Positions 202-9,688 of a DNA stretch of 64,000 nucleotides are shown here, piece by piece. The notes beneath the pieces are model-generated. The model ran no database searches. It saw only the letters and a program-made list of their open reading frames with translations, and was not told the origin of the DNA. Numbering within the stretch: position 1 is the stretch's first letter; every line of letters starts with the position of its first letter. A program made the translations under genes and the position numbers. Source of the stretch: Reyranella sp. (lineage in GTDB: Bacteria; Pseudomonadota; Alphaproteobacteria; Reyranellales; Reyranellaceae); NCBI RefSeq assembly GCF_004297405.1, contig NZ_SCVC01000032.1, forward strand, positions 1-64,000, written 5' to 3'.

Positions 202-1821
202 TCAGCTCAGCACCATCTCGCGATAGTTCGCCGCCGCGACCTCGTCGCAGCGGGCGCGGTAGGCCGGGGCGCTGCCGCTGTAGCGTGCGATGCGCCGGGT
301 CTGCTTGCCCTCGACATTGGTGTTGATGCCGGTGAACCACGAGTTCACCTCGTTGGAGAGCAATCCCACTGAGGCATCGAGCACCGTCTTCATCCAGGCC
401 TCGACGCCTTCCGGTGTGGCGTCGATGCGCGTCAGCCCGTGCTCGCGCATGAAACGCAGCAGGTCAGTCACCCATTCGACATTGTATTCGATGCTGCGGG
501 GGATATTGCCCAAAGCTGTATGGGGCCCCAGCAGCAGCAGCAGATTGGGAAAGCCCTCCACCGACATGCCGACGAAGGTCTCCGCCCCCTCGGCCCATTT
601 CTCCTTCAGCCGCCGGCCACCGACACCGCGGAAGTCGATGCGGTCGAAGGCGCCGGTCAGCGCATCGAAGCCGGTCGCATAGACGATCATGTCGAACTCG
701 AATTCGCGGGCGCTGGTTGCAATGCCGGTGGGCGTGATGCGCTGGATCGGCGTCTCGGTGATGTCGATCAGCTCGACATTGGGCTGGTTGTAGACCTCGT
801 AGTAGCGCGTCTCCAGTGGCACGCGGCGGGTGCCAAAGCCGTGGTTCTTGGGGATCAGCTTCTCAGCTACCGCCGGATCTTTGACGCGGCTCCTGATCTT
901 GCGTGCCACGAAATCGGAGATCAGCGCATTGGCCTTGGGGTCGGTCAGGATGTCGTTGAAGTTGCCGACCCAGATGCCAAAGCCGCGTTCGCCGTAGAGC
1001 TTCTCGAAGAAGGCCTCGCGCTCCTCGGCCGTTACGTCGAAGGTGGCGCGCGGATCGGCGGTGTGCAGGAAGCAGGCGAAGGTCTCCTGGCAGCGCCGGA
1101 AGATATCGGGATAGCTTTCGCGAATGGCGGACATCTCCGCCTTGTCGATCTTGCCGTTGTGCAAGGGCGCGCACCAATTGGGCGTGCGCTGGAACACGGT
1201 CAGGCTTTTCGCAGTTTTTGCGACCTCCTGGATCGTCTGCACGCCGGTGGCACCGGTGCCGATCACGGCGATGCGCTTGCCCTCGAAGTTCACCGGCTCG
1301 TGCGGCCAGCGCGCGGTGTGGCAGGACTGGCCCTTGAAGCTTTCGACGCCCTCGACGCGGGGCATCGTGGGCGCGGAGAGGGGGCCGATCGCCGTGATCA
1401 GGAAGCGCGCGGTCGCTGAACTGCCATCCTCCAGAGTTACGAGCCAGCTTCGCGTTTCCTCGTGCCAGTGGGCCGCCGCGACACGGCTCCTCAACTGGAT
1501 GTCGCGACGCAGGTCGAACTTGTCGGCGACATGGTTCAGGTAACGCAGCGTCTCGGGCTGGGGGGAGAAATGCTCGGTCCAGTCCCATTCCTCCAGCAGC
1601 TCTTTCGAGAAGGAGTAGCCGTAGGAATAGCTCTCCGAATCGAACCGCGCGCCGGGATAGCGGTTCCAGTACCAGGTGCCGCCGACGCCGGTGCCAGCCT
1701 CGAAGACGCGTACCTTCATGCCCAGTCCGCGCAGGCGGTGGAGCTGGAAGAGGCCCGACATGCCAGCACCGATGACGATGGCATCGAAGTCGGGCGCCGG
1801 TGTGCGTTGCTGGGCAACCAT
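202..1821 (-). CDS. FAD-dependent Baeyer-Villiger-type monooxygenase
   Basis: This 539-residue protein belongs to the flavin monooxygenase family. An N-terminal FAD Rossmann motif (GAGMSG, about residues 18-23) and a second NADPH Rossmann motif (GTGATG, about 188-193) flank FKGQSCHTARWP (about 162-173). That last motif matches the Baeyer-Villiger fingerprint FxGxxxHxxxW(P/D). The expected reaction is NADPH- and O2-dependent insertion of oxygen next to a ketone, giving an ester or lactone; the substrate cannot be read from sequence. The gene lies 12 bases after an SDR dehydrogenase on the same strand, an arrangement that fits alcohol-to-ketone-to-ester catabolism. Length is normal for the family and no active-site motif is missing. 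Confidence 0.88.
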   Translation of the reverse strand: MVAQQRTPAPDFDAIVIGAGMSGLFQLHRLRGLGMKVRVFEAGTGVGGTWYWNRYPGARFDSESYSYGYSFSKELLEEWDWTEHFSPQPETLRYLNHVADKFDLRRDIQLRSRVAAAHWHEETRSWLVTLEDGSSATARFLITAIGPLSAPTMPRVEGVESFKGQSCHTARWPHEPVNFEGKRIAVIGTGATGVQTIQEVAKTAKSLTVFQRTPNWCAPLHNGKIDKAEMSAIRESYPDIFRRCQETFACFLHTADPRATFDVTAEEREAFFEKLYGERGFGIWVGNFNDILTDPKANALISDFVARKIRSRVKDPAVAEKLIPKNHGFGTRRVPLETRYYEVYNQPNVELIDITETPIQRITPTGIATSAREFEFDMIVYATGFDALTGAFDRIDFRGVGGRRLKEKWAEGAETFVGMSVEGFPNLLLLLGPHTALGNIPRSIEYNVEWVTDLLRFMREHGLTRIDATPEGVEAWMKTVLDASVGLLSNEVNSWFTGINTNVEGKQTRRIARYSGSAPAYRARCDEVAAANYREMVLS

Positions 1822-1833
1822 GACTCGCCCCTC

Positions 1834-2805
1834 CTAACGGCCGACGGTCCAGCCGGCCTTGCCCGCGAAATCGGCGAAGAACTCGGGCTCGTAGGCCTTC
1901 TCCGGCGTCGCGCGCACCAGGTCGTCAATCAGTTCGGCGTCGCGACCGACCAGGATGCGCCAGCGCTCGTTGCGCACGCCGTCCAGAATGATGGTCGCAG
2001 CCTGGGCAGCTGTCGTCGGCGCATCCTCCAGGAAGCGCCGCGCCCGTTCGAGGATCATCTTGCGGATCTCCTCGTCGGAAACCTTGTCGATATCGGGGTT
2101 GCGCGCCGCGAGGCGCTTGCGGGCCAGTTCGATCTCGCGGGCAGTGATCTCCTCGCCCTGGTTGCCGGTCTGCACCTTGAGCGAATTCGAGGCGATCGAC
2201 GTGCCGATATGGCCCGGCATCACCACCGAGCATTTGATGTGAGGGGCGTTGAGGCGCAGGTCGGTGATCAGCGCCTCGGTGAAGCCCTTCACCGCGAACT
2301 TGGCGGCAGCATAGGCGGTCTGCGGGATGTCGGGTGCGATGAAGGCCCAGAAGCCGTTGACGCTCGACGTGTTGACGATGTGGCCGGCATCGGCGCGGCG
2401 CATCATCGGCAGGAAGGCACGCGTGCAGCGATAGACGCCACCCCAGCAGATGTCGAAGGTGCGCTCCCATTCGTCACGACCATTGACGAGGAAACTGCCG
2501 CCGCCGCCGATACCGGCATTGTTGAACAGCAGATGGATGCGGTCGGACTCCTGGTCCTTCTCGACTTCGTCACGGAAGCGCGCGACGTCGGCTTCCTTCG
2601 AGACGTCGGCGATGTGCGTGGTGATGCGCTGGCCCTGGCTCATGCCGCCGGCCTCGCAAAGCCGCTTGGTCTCGGCCATGGCGGCACCAGAGACATCGCA
2701 CATGGCGATGTTGCAGCCTTCGGCCGCCAACTGACGGGCCAGTTCGCGACCCATGCCCGTGCCGCCACCGGTGATGACGGCAATCCTCCCTGCGAAATCT
2801 TTCAT
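1834..2805 (-). CDS. SDR family NAD(P)-dependent oxidoreductase
   Basis: This is a 323-residue classical short-chain dehydrogenase. It has the cofactor motif TGGGTGMGR (about 12-20), NNAG (95-98), a serine in NTSSVNG (about 145-151) and the catalytic YAAAK (165-169). It is longer than the usual 250 residues, with an extra C-terminal region of roughly 60 residues. It probably oxidises a secondary alcohol or reduces a ketone for the Baeyer-Villiger enzyme encoded 12 bases downstream; this link is inferred from operon layout only. A purine-rich GGAGGGACC sits just ahead of the ATG. Confidence 0.88.
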   Translation of the reverse strand: MKDFAGRIAVITGGGTGMGRELARQLAAEGCNIAMCDVSGAAMAETKRLCEAGGMSQGQRITTHIADVSKEADVARFRDEVEKDQESDRIHLLFNNAGIGGGGSFLVNGRDEWERTFDICWGGVYRCTRAFLPMMRRADAGHIVNTSSVNGFWAFIAPDIPQTAYAAAKFAVKGFTEALITDLRLNAPHIKCSVVMPGHIGTSIASNSLKVQTGNQGEEITAREIELARKRLAARNPDIDKVSDEEIRKMILERARRFLEDAPTTAAQAATIILDGVRNERWRILVGRDAELIDDLVRATPEKAYEPEFFADFAGKAGWTVGR

Positions 2806-2865: not shown

Positions 2866-3780
2866 CTAAGTCCTGACGGGCGCCCTCTCGGCGGCCGCTT
2901 TGCGCAGGCGCGCAATCTCCTCGACGATGCTGATCTGCGACGTCTGTCGCGCCAGCTCCTCCGCCCGCTTGAGCTGCGGTGTCGCCGCCGCGGTGTCACC
3001 TTGCAACAGGCTGCTTCGGCCGGCGCGCAGGTAGAAGACGGCGGCCTCCGACGGCTTCCCGAGCTTCAGCGAAGCTTCACCTGCAAGGGCCAATACGCGG
3101 GCCATGCCGCGATAGTCGATCGCCTGCTGCCGGTTGGCGGCGGCCTGTTCGAAAGAGGTGAGGGCGGCACCTGCATTGCCGTCGAGCAAGGCGGCACGGC
3201 CCACCAGTTCCTGTCGGTCGGCCTGGATATCTGCCTGTTTGCTGGGCGCGATGGCAGCGATCGCTTGTGCCAGGGTGGCGCCATCGCCACGCTCCGCTGC
3301 GACCAGCCCGCGGATGAACCAGGCGCGGGGCGCCGTATCCACGTCGCGCGCCTTGAGTTCCAGTGCCTGCTGCGCAGCGGTCGCGGCCGTAGCGGTATCG
3401 CCCGCACGATAGGCGGCGGCGGCCTGAACCAGCATCAGCTCGGCCGGCACGGCGACCTGGCGCCGCTGCAGCTCGGCCTGCGCATTCCGTGTCGTCAGCA
3501 ACGCGGCCTTGGGATCGCCGGCGCGGATTTCTGCCAGGGCAAGATTGTAGGCCGTATCGGCGATGGCCTCGGCATCGTCGCGTTCGTAGGCGCGGGAGAG
3601 GGCGAGCTTGTACTGGCGCACAGCCTGCGCTGGCATACCGAGCGACAAGGCCTGTGTGCCGGCGCGGTTGGCCGTGTCGAGTTTGGTGTCGGGCGGCGGA
3701 CCCTGGTCGGCCGGCGTGCCACCGCCGCAGGCGACCAGCAGCAGTGCCGCCGCGATGGGAGCGGCGATCCGCAACACCAT
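2866..3780 (-). CDS. TPR-like lipoprotein of the MCE/Mla-type locus
   Basis: This is a predicted outer- or inner-membrane lipoprotein of 304 residues. I start it at the internal ATG (MVLRIAAP), not at the longer track start. That ATG gives a clean lipoprotein signal ending LVAC at about residues 15-18, and it overlaps the stop of the preceding mlaD-like gene in a TGATG junction. The mature part is Ala-rich and helical with TPR-like pairs (A-x-x-Y-x-L-A and G-x-x-x-A-A-L type), from about residue 40 to the end. Mla/Pqi-type loci often end with a small DUF330-type lipoprotein instead; this one has a different, tetratricopeptide-like architecture. It may act as a scaffold for the periplasmic MCE ring, which is inference. 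Confidence 0.7.
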   Translation of the reverse strand: MVLRIAAPIAAALLLVACGGGTPADQGPPPDTKLDTANRAGTQALSLGMPAQAVRQYKLALSRAYERDDAEAIADTAYNLALAEIRAGDPKAALLTTRNAQAELQRRQVAVPAELMLVQAAAAYRAGDTATAATAAQQALELKARDVDTAPRAWFIRGLVAAERGDGATLAQAIAAIAPSKQADIQADRQELVGRAALLDGNAGAALTSFEQAAANRQQAIDYRGMARVLALAGEASLKLGKPSEAAVFYLRAGRSSLLQGDTAAATPQLKRAEELARQTSQISIVEEIARLRKAAAERAPVRT

Positions 3781-4781
3781 CACGGCCGTACCTCGATCGC
3801 CGGGGCGCGGCGTCCGGTAGCCGGGGTGGCGTTGCTGCCGCTGCTGCCCCCGAAGAGCCAATGATGGCGCAACTGGCCAAGCAGGAGTTCGAGCTCGCGG
3901 GCGGCGAGCTGGGCCTGCAGCAGGGTCGTGGGCAGAGCGTCGGTCGTGTCGGTAACGTTGCGGGTGATCTGCGGAGTCGTCGCCGCGAGATTGCGTGTCG
4001 TAGTCTGCAGTGAGGCCAACACCGAATCGGTTTTCTGCAGGATCTGGCCGATGCGCGGATCCTTCGAGGTACGTTCGAGCTGGCTGGCGAGTTCGCGGAC
4101 GCTCACCAGGGTCGTTTCGAGATCGGTCGCCATCTTGTCGTTGGCGATCAGCCGGCCGACGACGCCTTCACCGCTCTCGACCCGCCGCGCGATGCCGGCA
4201 GCCGAAGACAGCGTCTGCTCCAGCGGTCCAGCCGGATCGCCGACGCGCTGGGCGACGGCCGTGATGGCAACCACGGCCTTCTGCACTTCGTCCAGGATGG
4301 GCAGGACCTTGGCGCGCACCTCGTCGATCATCTGGCCCAGCGTGTCGGTCGCGGCACGCTCGCTGTGGGCTATGACGACCGCGTAGGACCAGTCGAGCTC
4401 GGGCCCTGTGCCGCGCGAGATATCGAGATAGGCCGCACCCGCGACACCGAACTGGCGGCGGATCGAGACCTGGGAGTCGCGGCGGATGAATGGCCGCATC
4501 TGGTCCTCGACGCGGGCCACGGCATGCATGCGCTGGTTGGGGTCGATGACGATGCGCCGGATCTCGCCGGCGCGCGTGCCCAACACCTGAACCTCGGCGC
4601 CCGGCGCCAGTCCGGAGACGCCTTCATCGGGCAGCAGAATGCGCAAGGTGAAGGAGGGCTGGAACCAGTCCTTCAGCAGGCCGGCGTTGATCAGAACGGC
4701 GACGAACACGCCGATGCAGGCCAGCACGACGGCGCCGACGAGCTCGTCGAACTGGTAGACGCCGAAAATCGAGCGCTTCAT
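3780..4781 (-). CDS. MlaD-type MCE domain protein
   Basis: This 333-residue protein begins with a cytoplasmic stub, one membrane helix (about residues 13-33) and then an MCE domain (about 42-120), seen in LPDEGVSGLAPGAEVQVLG followed by GEIRRIVID. The rest is a long helical region with many polar heptads. MlaD-family proteins form periplasmic hexameric rings that carry lipids between MlaE permease and other components. The start overlaps the upstream ATPase-like gene by four bases (ATGA), and the stop overlaps the lipoprotein start by one base, so translation is probably coupled across the locus. Confidence 0.88.
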   Translation of the reverse strand: MKRSIFGVYQFDELVGAVVLACIGVFVAVLINAGLLKDWFQPSFTLRILLPDEGVSGLAPGAEVQVLGTRAGEIRRIVIDPNQRMHAVARVEDQMRPFIRRDSQVSIRRQFGVAGAAYLDISRGTGPELDWSYAVVIAHSERAATDTLGQMIDEVRAKVLPILDEVQKAVVAITAVAQRVGDPAGPLEQTLSSAAGIARRVESGEGVVGRLIANDKMATDLETTLVSVRELASQLERTSKDPRIGQILQKTDSVLASLQTTTRNLAATTPQITRNVTDTTDALPTTLLQAQLAARELELLLGQLRHHWLFGGSSGSNATPATGRRAPAIEVRP

Positions 4782-5476
4782 CGCCTCCTCACCTGCACCA
4801 GGCCATGGTCGCCGAGCCGGAACACCTGCTCGGCGGTCACGAAGCGAGCTGCTTCCGCTGCCAGGCTTTCAACGATCCACAGTACCGTTGCGCCGCGATC
4901 CAAGGCTTCGGCGATCGCCTGCGCCATCGGCACGGCGAGATCGGCCGTGGCCTCGAGCGATTGATCCTGCACCACTATGAGATCGGGTGCACCGAGAAAG
5001 CCGCGTACGCAGGCTGCACGAACGAGCGCACGCCGCGGCGTCGTCTCGCGCCGGCCAACCGGCAGGCCGGGCAGACCGAACAGGCGGGCCAGCGCCGTCG
5101 CTTCGGCGATCACCTCCTCGCGCGGCCGGTCGAAATGGTAGAAGCGCGCCACCAGCACGGATTCGAGAACGCTCATGTGCGCGGGCCAGACATGTGTCTG
5201 TACCACGGTGCCGATGCGGCGGCGGCGCGTCAGCCGCTCGCGCGCGCCACGCGCCTGCCAGTCGACGCCGAGGAAACGCACTTGCCCGTCGGTCGGCGCG
5301 GCGAGGCCGATGCAGAGGTCGACCAGCGCCACGGCATCGATCTCGTCGTCGACCTGCACCAGCGTGGCGCCGCCGCGCGGCAGCTCGAGGTCGATGCGGG
5401 TGGTCGTGGTGGAGAGCTGGCGCTCGCCTAAAGTTGCTGCTTGCAGGGAAAGGATCGATCGGGCGGGGCGCGCCAT
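4778..5476 (-). CDS. Degenerate MlaF-like ABC ATPase (pseudo-ATPase)
   Basis: At 232 residues this has the length and overall register of an MlaF-type ABC nucleotide-binding subunit and sits between mlaE-like and mlaD-like genes. The nucleotide motifs are gone. The Walker A region reads VQVDDEIDAVALVD instead of GPSGxGKTT. The signature LSGGMxxR is replaced by RRETTPRRAL. Walker B LIMFDEP is LIVVQDQ, and the switch histidine is E (IVES). The Q-loop glutamine (VVQTH) and the PDLI stretch remain, which anchor the alignment. The frame is open and translationally coupled on both sides, so this looks like a maintained pseudo-subunit and not a decayed gene. ATP hydrolysis by this chain is unlikely. 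Confidence 0.75.
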   Translation of the reverse strand: MARPARSILSLQAATLGERQLSTTTTRIDLELPRGGATLVQVDDEIDAVALVDLCIGLAAPTDGQVRFLGVDWQARGARERLTRRRRIGTVVQTHVWPAHMSVLESVLVARFYHFDRPREEVIAEATALARLFGLPGLPVGRRETTPRRALVRAACVRGFLGAPDLIVVQDQSLEATADLAVPMAQAIAEALDRGATVLWIVESLAAEAARFVTAEQVFRLGDHGLVQVRRR

Positions 5477-5477
5477 C

Positions 5478-6299
5478 TCAGCCCACCAGATCGAAGACGC
5501 CGTTGATCACCAGGATCGCCAGCGCCGACCGCACGAAGCCGCGCGGCACGATACGCTGCAGTTCGTCACCCTCGTCGCGACGGCCGAGTCCGGTCGCGCA
5601 GCAGACCAGCGCCACGAAGAAGCCAATGAAGATGCATTTCAGCGGTGGCACGATGAAGTCGCGCACCGTCATGGCGCGTTGCACCATGTCGGAGAAATCC
5701 CAGATCGAATAGGCGATGAGACCGAGACCGTGCGCGATCAGGTAGCCTGTGAGCAGGGTCGACAACAGCAGAACCGTTGCCATGCAGAAGGCACCCAGGG
5801 CAAAAGCCAGCGCCCGCGGCACGACCAGCAAGACCATCGGGTCGAGGCCCTGGATCTCGAACAGCCGCAGCCAGCCGCCGGTATGTGCTTCGCCCAGCTC
5901 GATCAGGGTGGCTGTGCCGTTGCGGCCGAAGATCAGCAATCCGACCAGGATCGGCACGAGTTCACGGATCAGCAGGATGACGATCACTTGGCCTACTAGC
6001 CCGGTCTGACCGGTCGCGGCGAGCCAGTAGACGGCCTGTGACACCAGGGCCACGCCGATCAGCAGGCCGGTCGCGACGGTGGTCGACAGCGACCGCACGG
6101 CCACGTTGTTCAGCATGCGCTTGAACTCGAGCCAGACCGGCCGACGCCAGGTCGAGCGGCGGCTGGCCACGACGAGTACCGTCGCGCTGAACGAGACGAA
6201 GAGCAGCAGGTTGCTGGTGCCTTGGCGCACGATCGCACCCAACCCGCCGAGCGCGCGTCGAATTCGACCGCGATCGAAGCTGTAAGTCGTGGGCGCCAT
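5478..6299 (-). CDS. MlaE-family ABC permease
   Basis: This 273-residue multi-spanning membrane protein has the MlaE/YrbE core. An N-terminal amphipathic segment is followed by about five hydrophobic helices. The conserved central stretch ELVPILVGLLIFGRNGTA is equivalent to the R-x-G-x-x-x-x-A-E-L-G-x-M region of the family, continuing as LIELGEA. It should form the inner-membrane channel of an MCE lipid transporter. I prefer the ATG that overlaps the upstream stop (TGATG) over a GTG one codon earlier. The next gene, encoding the ATPase-like subunit, begins one base after its stop codon. Confidence 0.85.
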   Translation of the reverse strand: MAPTTYSFDRGRIRRALGGLGAIVRQGTSNLLLFVSFSATVLVVASRRSTWRRPVWLEFKRMLNNVAVRSLSTTVATGLLIGVALVSQAVYWLAATGQTGLVGQVIVILLIRELVPILVGLLIFGRNGTATLIELGEAHTGGWLRLFEIQGLDPMVLLVVPRALAFALGAFCMATVLLLSTLLTGYLIAHGLGLIAYSIWDFSDMVQRAMTVRDFIVPPLKCIFIGFFVALVCCATGLGRRDEGDELQRIVPRGFVRSALAILVINGVFDLVG

Positions 6300-8701
6300 C
6301 ACGTGCGGCCGACCATGACGAAGGTCCGCATCGTGCCGGTCTCAGGCAGGAAATAACTGCCGCGCGGCCGGAAGAGAAAATCGCCCGACAACACTTCGTA
6401 GGCAGTCTCGGAGGCCGCGACGCTGCGTCGGCTGGCCGTCGCGGCCAGCACCTTGGCAACGCCCAGGGCCCCGCCCCACAGGCTACGGGTCGGCGGTTCG
6501 GTGCCGACGGTGGAGATCATCACCGTGCCGATATCGATGGCCAGACGGAAGTCGAGGCTGGTGCTCCACTGATCCTCGAACTCGATCAGCCGATCGCGCA
6601 GCGCCAGCATCGCCGTCGCCACGCAGCGCGCATTTTCACCGATGCTGTCGGCCTCTGGCGAAAACGCGGCCACGACGATCTGGTCGTCGAGCAGGGCGGC
6701 ATAGGTAGCGCCGCTGCGTTCGATCGAGAGGCGCAGCTCATGGACGATCGCATCCATCGCCGTGCGCTGGCCGCTGTCGGATGGCCGTTGCGTCACGCTT
6801 GTCCAGGTCGGCAGCTTGATCACGCCGACGGCCGCGCGGTCGACAGAGGATTCGCGCACATCTTCGAGAGCCGCGCCCTGCTGCAGCAAGGTGCGTTCGA
6901 GCCGAGCCTGGCGCTGCAGGAAACTGTCCGGCGGCCTCTCCTCGGCGGGGGGCGGCATCACGGCCGCAGCGAGAGCCTGCGAAGAGGTCGCCAGGGCGCC
7001 CGGTGTCGCGGCGGTGAACCGCAGCGCCAGCAGGATCGACAATGCATCGCAGAAGGCCGCGAGCCCCGCCGCGCGATCGCCTTGCCGCGGGTCCTCGACA
7101 CTCAGCAGGCCGATCGACTGTCCGGCCGCGACGATGGGGGCGAGGTAGACCCGCGAGATTCCCAAAGGCTCCAGATAGCTCGTGAACAGCTCGGAGGTGC
7201 GCCGGTCGCGTCCCGCATCGGCGGCGTCGATTGGTGCCCCCTTGTCGACGGCGGCGAAGAGATGAGGCATCTCATCGCGATGGAATTCGAGGCCGGCAGT
7301 ATGGTCGTCGACGGTGCGGTCGAAGCAATCCTCACAGGTGAGCGTGCGCCGGTCGGACGTGAGCCGCCAGATCGCCACGCGTTTGGCGTCGCATGCCGTT
7401 GCCGCACTTTCGGTTGCGCTCTGCAGGTTCTCGCCGGCAAGACCATCGGCAGTCGCAGCCCCTTGGGCGAGGTCGACGAAGGCCTGCGTGCGAAGCTCCA
7501 GGGCCTGTTGCCGGGTTGCGGCGGCGGTAGCACGGCGGTCGGCCAGCATGGAGCGCCAGGCCATCAGGCCGGTCAGTCCTGCTATGAGCAGCACCACGAC
7601 CACGGACATGAACAGCGCCGCCCAGCCGCTATCGACGACAAAGCCCGTGAAATCGGTCTCGGGCACGACGATCAGGACCACCCAGTTGTGGCCGCTCAAC
7701 ATCTTTACGGGCTCGGACGAGACGATGATGCGGCGCTCGTCGATATCGAGAACCTGGCGGCCGTAGCCTTCGACGCGCAGCCGGTTGTAGACCCGCGTCA
7801 GCACCGGATCGCCGATCTCGTCGAGCAGCGGCGAGGTCACGTCGGGGCGGTCGGCCGGCAGCCAGTCGTCACTGGGATAGGCGACGATCCGGCCCTGCTT
7901 GTCGATGATCAGGGCCTTGCCACTGACGCCGATACCGAGCTGTTTCAGGAAGGCGCAAAGCGTGGCGAGCTCGATGTCGACACTGAGCACATTCACGAGC
8001 TTGCCGTCGGCGTCGTAGTTCGGAATGGCAAACGAGATGCCGGGCTTCTTGACGGTGAAGAACAGATAGGTGGGTGTCCAGAAAGGTTTCTTGCTCTGCT
8101 CCGCGCCCTGGTACCAGGGCCGCGTCCTGGGATCGAAGGTGTCGGACGGATCGGTTTCGGTCGCCGTCACCTTGCCGGTGGCGTCGCGCCGAACCCAGGT
8201 GACGCGGCGGTTGCCGTCGCGGACGTCGATCGTCTTGGTGTCGTAGCCGCCCTGCTCGTTGCGGACGATGAACTGGAAGTTGCCCTCGGGATCGGCATAG
8301 CTGAAACCAGTGACCGGCCCAATCGTCGGCAGGGCATTCAGCGCGAATCGTTCAGCTTCGGGACCGCCCTCGGCAACGCTGCGGCCCTGCGCTGCCGCGC
8401 CCGCCAGTTCGAGGAACTGCTGCGCCGGCGAGAGATAGGCGTGCATCTGGACTTCGACACGCCGGTCGATGGCAGTGATCAGGTCGTTGGATAGGATGAT
8501 CGCGCCGCGGCGGTTGCTGTCATAGACGTAGAAGGCAATGGCCGAGATAAGCAGGACCACGGCGATCACGCCGATCACCGGCAGGCTGCGGCGCAGCCAG
8601 GTCCGCCAGGGCGCCTCGTTGCGGCCGGACCGACCGGCGCCTGAGAATACGGCCATGGCGCGAGCCATGGGGCGTGAGGCAGGTTTGGGCGGGCGTGCCA
8701 T
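6299..8701 (-). CDS. dCache-GAF sensor with degenerate class III cyclase domain
   Basis: This is an 800-residue membrane sensor. It has a first membrane helix (about 39-60), a periplasmic double-cache domain with the hallmark DPRTRPWY (about 190-197), a second helix (about 359-382), a GAF-like domain (about 400-560) and a C-terminal class III nucleotidyl cyclase fold (about 625-800). In the cyclase part the first metal Asp (usual LFADI) is Lys (VIKL). The transition-state Asn and Arg of the usual GDAVNxAARL are absent (GGALGVAKVL). The second metal Asp survives (LLDDQ). Catalysis is therefore doubtful. Its stop overlaps the mlaE-like start, so it probably senses an external ligand and regulates or joins the transporter; that role is inference. 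Confidence 0.75.
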   Translation of the reverse strand: MARPPKPASRPMARAMAVFSGAGRSGRNEAPWRTWLRRSLPVIGVIAVVLLISAIAFYVYDSNRRGAIILSNDLITAIDRRVEVQMHAYLSPAQQFLELAGAAAQGRSVAEGGPEAERFALNALPTIGPVTGFSYADPEGNFQFIVRNEQGGYDTKTIDVRDGNRRVTWVRRDATGKVTATETDPSDTFDPRTRPWYQGAEQSKKPFWTPTYLFFTVKKPGISFAIPNYDADGKLVNVLSVDIELATLCAFLKQLGIGVSGKALIIDKQGRIVAYPSDDWLPADRPDVTSPLLDEIGDPVLTRVYNRLRVEGYGRQVLDIDERRIIVSSEPVKMLSGHNWVVLIVVPETDFTGFVVDSGWAALFMSVVVVLLIAGLTGLMAWRSMLADRRATAAATRQQALELRTQAFVDLAQGAATADGLAGENLQSATESAATACDAKRVAIWRLTSDRRTLTCEDCFDRTVDDHTAGLEFHRDEMPHLFAAVDKGAPIDAADAGRDRRTSELFTSYLEPLGISRVYLAPIVAAGQSIGLLSVEDPRQGDRAAGLAAFCDALSILLALRFTAATPGALATSSQALAAAVMPPPAEERPPDSFLQRQARLERTLLQQGAALEDVRESSVDRAAVGVIKLPTWTSVTQRPSDSGQRTAMDAIVHELRLSIERSGATYAALLDDQIVVAAFSPEADSIGENARCVATAMLALRDRLIEFEDQWSTSLDFRLAIDIGTVMISTVGTEPPTRSLWGGALGVAKVLAATASRRSVAASETAYEVLSGDFLFRPRGSYFLPETGTMRTFVMVGRT

Positions 8702-8818
8702 TCGACTGTAACCTTACCATCGTTCCGGCGACGCAGGCATAGTGCGTGAGGCATGCACGCCTATCGCGCGCCATATTCGCGGTTCAGGAGTCCTCTCCCC
8801 TCTACCCAAGGAGAAGAC

Positions 8819-9688
8819 ATGCCTGCACAGCTCGCCCGCCGCGCCGTCCTCGCAGCACCCCTTCTGACCGTTCCTCTCCTGGCAATGCCGGCTTTTGCCA
8901 ACGATGCGACGGTCAAATTCGCCGAGCTGGAACGCCGCAATGGAGGTCGGCTGGGGGTGGCAGCCTTCGACTCGGCGAGCGGCCGGCGCATCGGCTATCG
9001 CGGTGAAGAACGCTTCCCGATGTGCAGCACCTTCAAGTTCCTGGCGTCAGCCTTCGCTCTGGCGCGCGTCGATCGCGGCGAGGAACGGCTCGATCGCCGT
9101 ATCGTCTACTCGGCCCAGGATCTCGTGACCTATTCGCCGATCACCAAGGACCATGTCGGTCCGGCGGGTCTGTCGGTGGCGGAGCTGTGCGATGCCACGA
9201 TGACGCTCAGCGACAACACCGCGGGTAATCTGCTGCTCGCGAGCTTTGGCGGGCCGGCCGGACTCACCGCCTATGCGCGCAGCCTGGGCGATCAGACGAC
9301 TCGGCTCGATCGTATCGAGACTGCACTCAACGAGGGCCTGCCCGGTGACCCGCGCGACACCACATCGCCTGTCGCCATGCTGGGCACGATGCAGCGGCTC
9401 CTTCTTGGCGATGCACTGTCGGCTGCGTCGCGCGAACGCCTCACTGGGTGGCTGCTCGCCAACAAGACGGGCGACAAGCGCCTGCGCGCCGGGATGCCAG
9501 GATGGAAAGTGGGCGACAAGACCGGTACGGGCGGCAATGGCAGCGCCAACGACATCGCGATCGTCTGGCCGACCGGCCGCGCGCCGCTGCTGGTGACGGT
9601 CTACTACACCGGCTCGACGATATCGGACGAGGCGCGCAACGACGTGATCGCCGAGGCCGGCCGCATCGTGGCAGCCAGCCTCAAGTGA
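8819..9688 (+). CDS. bla: Class A serine beta-lactamase
   Basis: This 289-residue secreted enzyme hydrolyses beta-lactam antibiotics in the periplasm. The ATG I use is preceded by AAGGAGAAGAC, a strong ribosome site; the longer track start lacks one and would hide the signal peptide. The export signal has twin arginines (ARRAVLAAP) and ends AMPAFA. All class A motifs are present in register: S-T-F-K at 70-73, SDN at 131-133, the omega-loop E-T-A-L-N from residue 167, and KTG at 234-236. Cys69 precedes the nucleophile but no Cys is seen at 238. No ampR-type regulator is adjacent; the divergent neighbour is the cache sensor. Confidence 0.93.
   Translation: MPAQLARRAVLAAPLLTVPLLAMPAFANDATVKFAELERRNGGRLGVAAFDSASGRRIGYRGEERFPMCSTFKFLASAFALARVDRGEERLDRRIVYSAQDLVTYSPITKDHVGPAGLSVAELCDATMTLSDNTAGNLLLASFGGPAGLTAYARSLGDQTTRLDRIETALNEGLPGDPRDTTSPVAMLGTMQRLLLGDALSAASRERLTGWLLANKTGDKRLRAGMPGWKVGDKTGTGGNGSANDIAIVWPTGRAPLLVTVYYTGSTISDEARNDVIAEAGRIVAASLK

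Follow-up and report, generated by a model that had tools for sequence, protein, structure and literature searches.

A conserved five-gene MCE/Mla-type system with a predicted pseudo-ATPase subunit and an apparent pseudocyclase receptor in Alphaproteobacteria

ABC-type lipid transporters are understood to be driven by ATP, and the question raised by a locus of Reyranella sp. is how an MCE/Mla-type transporter could operate with a nucleotide-binding subunit whose catalytic residues are gone. The locus lies in the first 64,000 nucleotides of contig NZ_SCVC01000032.1 (assembly GCF_004297405.1), a stretch called the window here, and its closest named relative is Reyranella massiliensis. Its gene (5476 to 4778, 232 aa) comes third in a row of five minus-strand genes, in the slot between an MlaE-type permease gene and an MCE (MlaD) gene, and the subunit is referred to below as the pseudo-NBD. 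A preliminary description of this DNA had placed it at the correct coordinates, without naming a strand, and had regarded it as a pseudo-ATPase subunit of a distinct Mla variant, working either without ATP hydrolysis or with a second ATPase supplied in trans. The genes and the positions on which the argument depends are as follows.

6299–8701, minus strand: receptor-like protein of 800 aa, with a transmembrane segment (about residues 42–60), a periplasmic dCache domain, another transmembrane segment (about 363–381), a GAF domain and a C-terminal class III cyclase-like domain; Pfam matches dCache_1 8e-19, GAF 4e-7 and Guanylate_cyc (PF00211) 3e-9, above the cut-off, and transmembrane segments by hydropathy.
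6449–6478, minus strand: degenerate cyclase active-site segment WGGALGVAKV, where M. tuberculosis Rv1625c reads WGDAVNVASR; neither the catalytic Asn nor the catalytic Arg is left.
5478–6302, minus strand: MlaE-type permease of 274 aa, with a GTG start overlapping the receptor stop (PF02405 2e-36, cut-off passed).
5814–5894, minus strand: coupling-helix region of the permease, where the canonical TMxVTEQIDAL is replaced by GEAHTGGWLRLFEIQGLDP.
4778–5476, minus strand: pseudo-NBD of 232 aa.
5330–5353, minus strand: Walker A position, VDDEIDAV, with neither Gly nor Lys.
5027–5041, minus strand: ABC signature position, TPRRA.
4961–4987, minus strand: Walker B position, PDLIVVQDQ, with Gln-Asp in place of Asp-Glu.
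4862–4882, minus strand: switch (H-loop) position, LWIVESL, with Glu in place of His.
3780–4781, minus strand: MCE (MlaD-like) protein of 333 aa, with one transmembrane segment, one MCE domain and a long C-terminal tail (PF02470 1e-8, cut-off passed).
2866–3780, minus strand: TPR lipoprotein of 304 aa with the lipobox LVAC; its TPR_12 match is weak (3e-6, below the cut-off).

All junctions between the five genes are overlaps or 1 nt wide. The MlaE stop is followed by the pseudo-NBD after a 1-nt gap, the pseudo-NBD stop and the MCE start share an ATGA overlap, and the remaining overlaps are GTGA between receptor and MlaE and TGATG between MCE and TPR genes; the coupling on both sides that had been reported for the pseudo-NBD is therefore correct.

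The absence of the Walker A Lys, the signature, the Walker B Asp-Glu and the switch His, also noted in the preliminary description, was confirmed by alignment to E. coli MlaF, in which GPSGIGKT corresponds to VDDEIDAV, LSGGM to TPRRA, the Walker B D-E pair to Q-D and the switch His to Glu. Taken as a single sequence, the window pseudo-NBD has no Pfam match and its matches to MlaF are weak (3e-4); a profile of 16 relatives searched against the PDB reached ABC NBDs at 7e-16 and MlaF at 5e-13, and profile-profile comparison (hhalign) with 17 canonical MlaF sequences gave 99.2% and E = 3.6e-19 over 203 columns. An AlphaFold2 model of the pseudo-NBD, built from four near-identical sequences, has a pLDDT of 35.

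The degenerate state is common to all 76 relatives, which come from four alphaproteobacterial family-level groups. Each of the 76 retains only 0–4 of the 12 catalytic residues, compared with 12 of 12 in 27 canonical MlaF proteins, and none of them places a canonical ATPase at this position. The Walker A Lys is kept in 0/76 and the Gly residues of the loop in 0–1/76, with acidic residues inside the loop; the Walker B Asp survives once and the Walker B Glu in 10 relatives, while the switch His and the first signature Gly are each found in two, and the Q-loop Gln is present in 29/76. Structural residues are retained, namely the signature-helix Arg (76/76) and the Pro preceding Walker B (75/76). 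Judged from these sequences, the pseudo-NBD takes the place of MlaF as an ABC-fold protein without its catalytic residues, and it cannot work as a conventional ATPase; the profile homology and the uniform degeneration thus support the pseudo-ATPase assignment.

Pairwise dN/dS values of the pseudo-NBD (Nei-Gojobori) are 0.06–0.18, with similar values for the permease and MCE genes, which indicates that the pseudo-NBD is under purifying and not relaxed selection. Its length is 221–247 aa in 75/76 relatives. A pseudogene or a sequencing error was ruled out by open frames at 52–95% identity and low dN/dS in 75 loci, and the inner TGA codons in three genomes (G846, G929 and G980) were set aside, as the frames are open once read by ORF. 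The exception in length is the one decayed locus (L191, genome G936), where the first four genes are all shortened (the pseudo-NBD to 166 aa) and the TPR gene was not found.

The family is well separated and widely distributed. In a profile search of 399 genomes of the window's phylum, six members were recovered at E ≤ 4.5e-87, and the next matches, generic ABC ATPases, came only at 1e-22. Carriers make up 17/75 genomes of the Reyranella family, 61/200 sampled genomes of a second family (f27), which looks like Acetobacteraceae, 5/17 genomes in the order of G111 and 3/43 in the order of G426; viral contigs and plasmids contained no relatives.

The five genes stand in one order and on one strand in 75/75 loci (Cache-GAF-class III cyclase-like receptor, MlaE, pseudo-NBD, MCE, TPR lipoprotein), and the TPR gene is missing from two of them, one at a contig edge (L159) and the other being the decayed locus. 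MlaB and MlaC are not in the operon, and the receptor and the TPR lipoprotein are there instead. The TPR lipoprotein has a detected lipobox in 59/73 relatives, and its Pfam TPR match is stronger in one relative (L070) than in the window copy. In a tree of 56 sequences, the permeases form one clade separate from canonical MlaE with support of 100/100. The system is a genuine, conserved variant of MCE/Mla, defined by the pseudo-NBD together with a pseudocyclase receptor, and it is apparently undescribed, since we did not find a description of the five-gene system in open-licence papers.

The cyclase domain of the receptor is recognised by PF00211 at 3e-9 in the window copy and at up to 9e-20 in a relative (L163), and by comparison with Rv1625c at 2e-8, but the transition-state Asn and Arg of Rv1625c are lost. 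Among the 74 relatives scored, the Asn is kept in two and the Arg in four, so this domain appears to be dead as well. Since the cyclase is degenerate in addition to the NBD, the operon encodes two predicted pseudoenzymes, and since the receptor and the TPR lipoprotein, which the preliminary description had missed, are equally conserved, the best model shifts towards a signal-gated system.

The permease and the MCE protein may still act as a pair. In MlaFEDB, the IF1 motif of the permease and a transmembrane glycine of the MCE protein bind each other, and the role of the permease coupling helix is taken from the same work (PMC7790496). Both contacts are retained, the IF1 (LxxLG) residues L18 and G22 in 89% and 99% of relatives, respectively, and Gly16 of the MCE transmembrane segment in 76/76, suggesting that permease and MCE protein still assemble into a complex. 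Between TM2 and TM3, the coupling-helix segment no longer carries the canonical TEQIDAL and is rewritten, consistent with a changed contact to the NBD.

Our best reading of these features is a receptor-gated MCE lipid conduit or transducer. In its specific form, to which we give about as much credence as doubt, the system is an Mla-type trans-envelope lipid conduit gated by its receptor, without ATP hydrolysis at its own NBD, which would serve as an adaptor. To hypothesize, a pseudo-NBD dimer would act as a structural adaptor, docked on the permease at the rewritten coupling helix, and the cyclase-like domain of the receptor would contact the pseudo-NBD, as gene order and co-conservation suggest. 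Sensing of a periplasmic ligand would then switch the permease-MCE channel open or shut. Lipids would move down their chemical gradient or by another energy source, and their route towards or away from an outer-membrane partner would be formed by the MCE protein and the TPR lipoprotein. A bolder form of this proposal is possible but doubtful, namely that the dead ABC NBD and the dead nucleotide cyclase make up a protein-protein switch by which a periplasmic signal, and not ATP hydrolysis, controls the movement of lipids between the membranes, making this a new class of MCE machine.

A counterpoint is that at least one canonical MlaE/MlaF pair is present in all 19 surveyed carriers, and that ATPase could be shared. 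The permease might thus run on a canonical MlaF belonging to another Mla system, and the pseudo-NBD might be a scaffold or one half of a mixed dimer. Sharing has a parallel in mycobacteria, where one ATPase (MceG) serves several Mce systems. There are also well-known ABC transporters in which a single site is degenerate (PMC7756269). However, MlaF-type ATPases pair one to one with canonical MlaE in 18/19 carrier genomes (in one of them, G843, after inspection), so no dedicated replacement ATPase, in the form of an orphan MlaF, was found in those 18. As the pseudo-NBD has neither Walker A nor signature, and has lost Walker B too, a mixed dimer would by the usual rules of ABC dimers lack a complete ATP site in either composite position, and the coupling-helix motif has diverged from that of permeases partnered with MlaF. 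We therefore consider borrowing improbable, and of the interpretation in the preliminary description the pseudo-ATPase subunit is supported, while the version with a second ATPase in trans is not supported. The canonical MlaF of G843 (L195:2931-3806, plus strand) carries about 30 extra residues past the Q-loop region, which lowered its score. The one genome without a one-to-one match, G851, has a single extra MlaF-like ATPase (L196:5526-6326, minus strand; 43% identical to Reyranella MlaF), without a detectable MlaE; its neighbours include type IV secretion-like genes and a gene for a LysR-type regulator.

It is equally improbable, in our view, that the operon is a signalling device with no net transport, in which the MCE protein, permease and pseudo-NBD would detect the lipids of the envelope and signal their state to the Cache-GAF-pseudocyclase protein, or the signal would run the other way. 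The receptor is always the first gene, and the two catalytically degenerate domains are both of a kind typical of protein-contact roles, but Pfam finds only dCache, GAF and cyclase domains in the receptor, with no recognisable output domain, and the MCE domain, the permease and their mutual contacts are all kept, as for a working conduit. Use of the proton gradient by the permease, with the NBD left as a structural remnant, has a precedent in SbmA, which has an ABC-like transmembrane domain, is powered by protons and no longer has an NBD or a coupling helix (PMC13316013). The charged residues R113, E114 and K222 are conserved in the permeases and could be counted in its favour; they are found in the canonical MlaE used for comparison too, no new conserved acidic ladder was seen in the permease, and the strong constraint on the NBD speaks against a mere remnant, so this option is quite unlikely. 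Finally, a cryptic ATPase, binding or hydrolysing ATP through unconventional residues, would fit loop lengths and an overall fold that appear to be kept and the Q-loop Gln of some relatives, but it is very hard to reconcile with a Walker A loop that has no Lys, almost no Gly and acidic residues instead, and no alternative conserved motif was seen.

Compared with known systems, the receptor-gated conduit that we favour shares with E. coli MlaFEDB the MlaE permease, the MlaD/MCE protein, an ABC-fold subunit in the MlaF position and the LxxLG and Gly contacts; unlike in E. coli, the NBD is predicted to be catalytically dead, the coupling-helix motif is rewritten, the permease belongs to a separate clade, and the operon has the Cache-GAF-pseudocyclase receptor and the TPR lipoprotein but no MlaB or MlaC. 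The minimal MlaEFD of the Veillonella type also has MlaE, an ABC subunit, a longer MCE protein and no MlaA, MlaB or MlaC genes alongside (PMC10665443), although its MlaF resembles that of model diderms, whereas the present system has a degenerate subunit, a shorter MCE protein and two more genes. PqiABC and LetAB are alike in performing MCE transport without an ABC ATPase of their own, but the PqiA and LetA membrane proteins are not MlaE permeases, and Pqi and Let are not known to have any NBD. An outer-membrane lipoprotein is present in Pqi too (PqiC; PMC10897342). SbmA/BacA (SLiPT) likewise represents an ABC-type transmembrane domain that runs without ATP after loss of NBD coupling (PMC13316013); there, the NBD is lost altogether and the transmembrane domain is akin to type IV ABC transporters, while the present system keeps an NBD under selection and has MlaE as its transmembrane domain. 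Loss of catalytic residues in an NBD is also seen in the degenerate-site transporters TAP, TM287/288 and ABCG5/G8, but these keep one functional composite site, whereas the pseudo-NBD has none of Walker A, Walker B, signature and switch left, and the operon does not supply it with an active partner NBD.

A widespread and selectively maintained MCE system of this kind offers a natural test of what an NBD does apart from hydrolysis and of whether ATP is dispensable for MCE conduits, and it bears on the direction in which lipids flow between bacterial membranes and on the energy for that flow. Some of the carriers have small genomes, which should make a genetic test practical.

The limits of the unit follow from its surroundings. 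Comparison of flanking genes showed no neighbour common across the groups and no further conserved gene; as the flanking genes differ between groups, the conserved unit is the five genes. In the window, a beta-lactamase family gene (PF13354 4e-44; 8753-9688, plus strand) is divergent from the operon, and downstream of it are a short-chain dehydrogenase gene (1834-2805, minus strand) and a flavin-binding monooxygenase-like gene (202-1821, minus strand).
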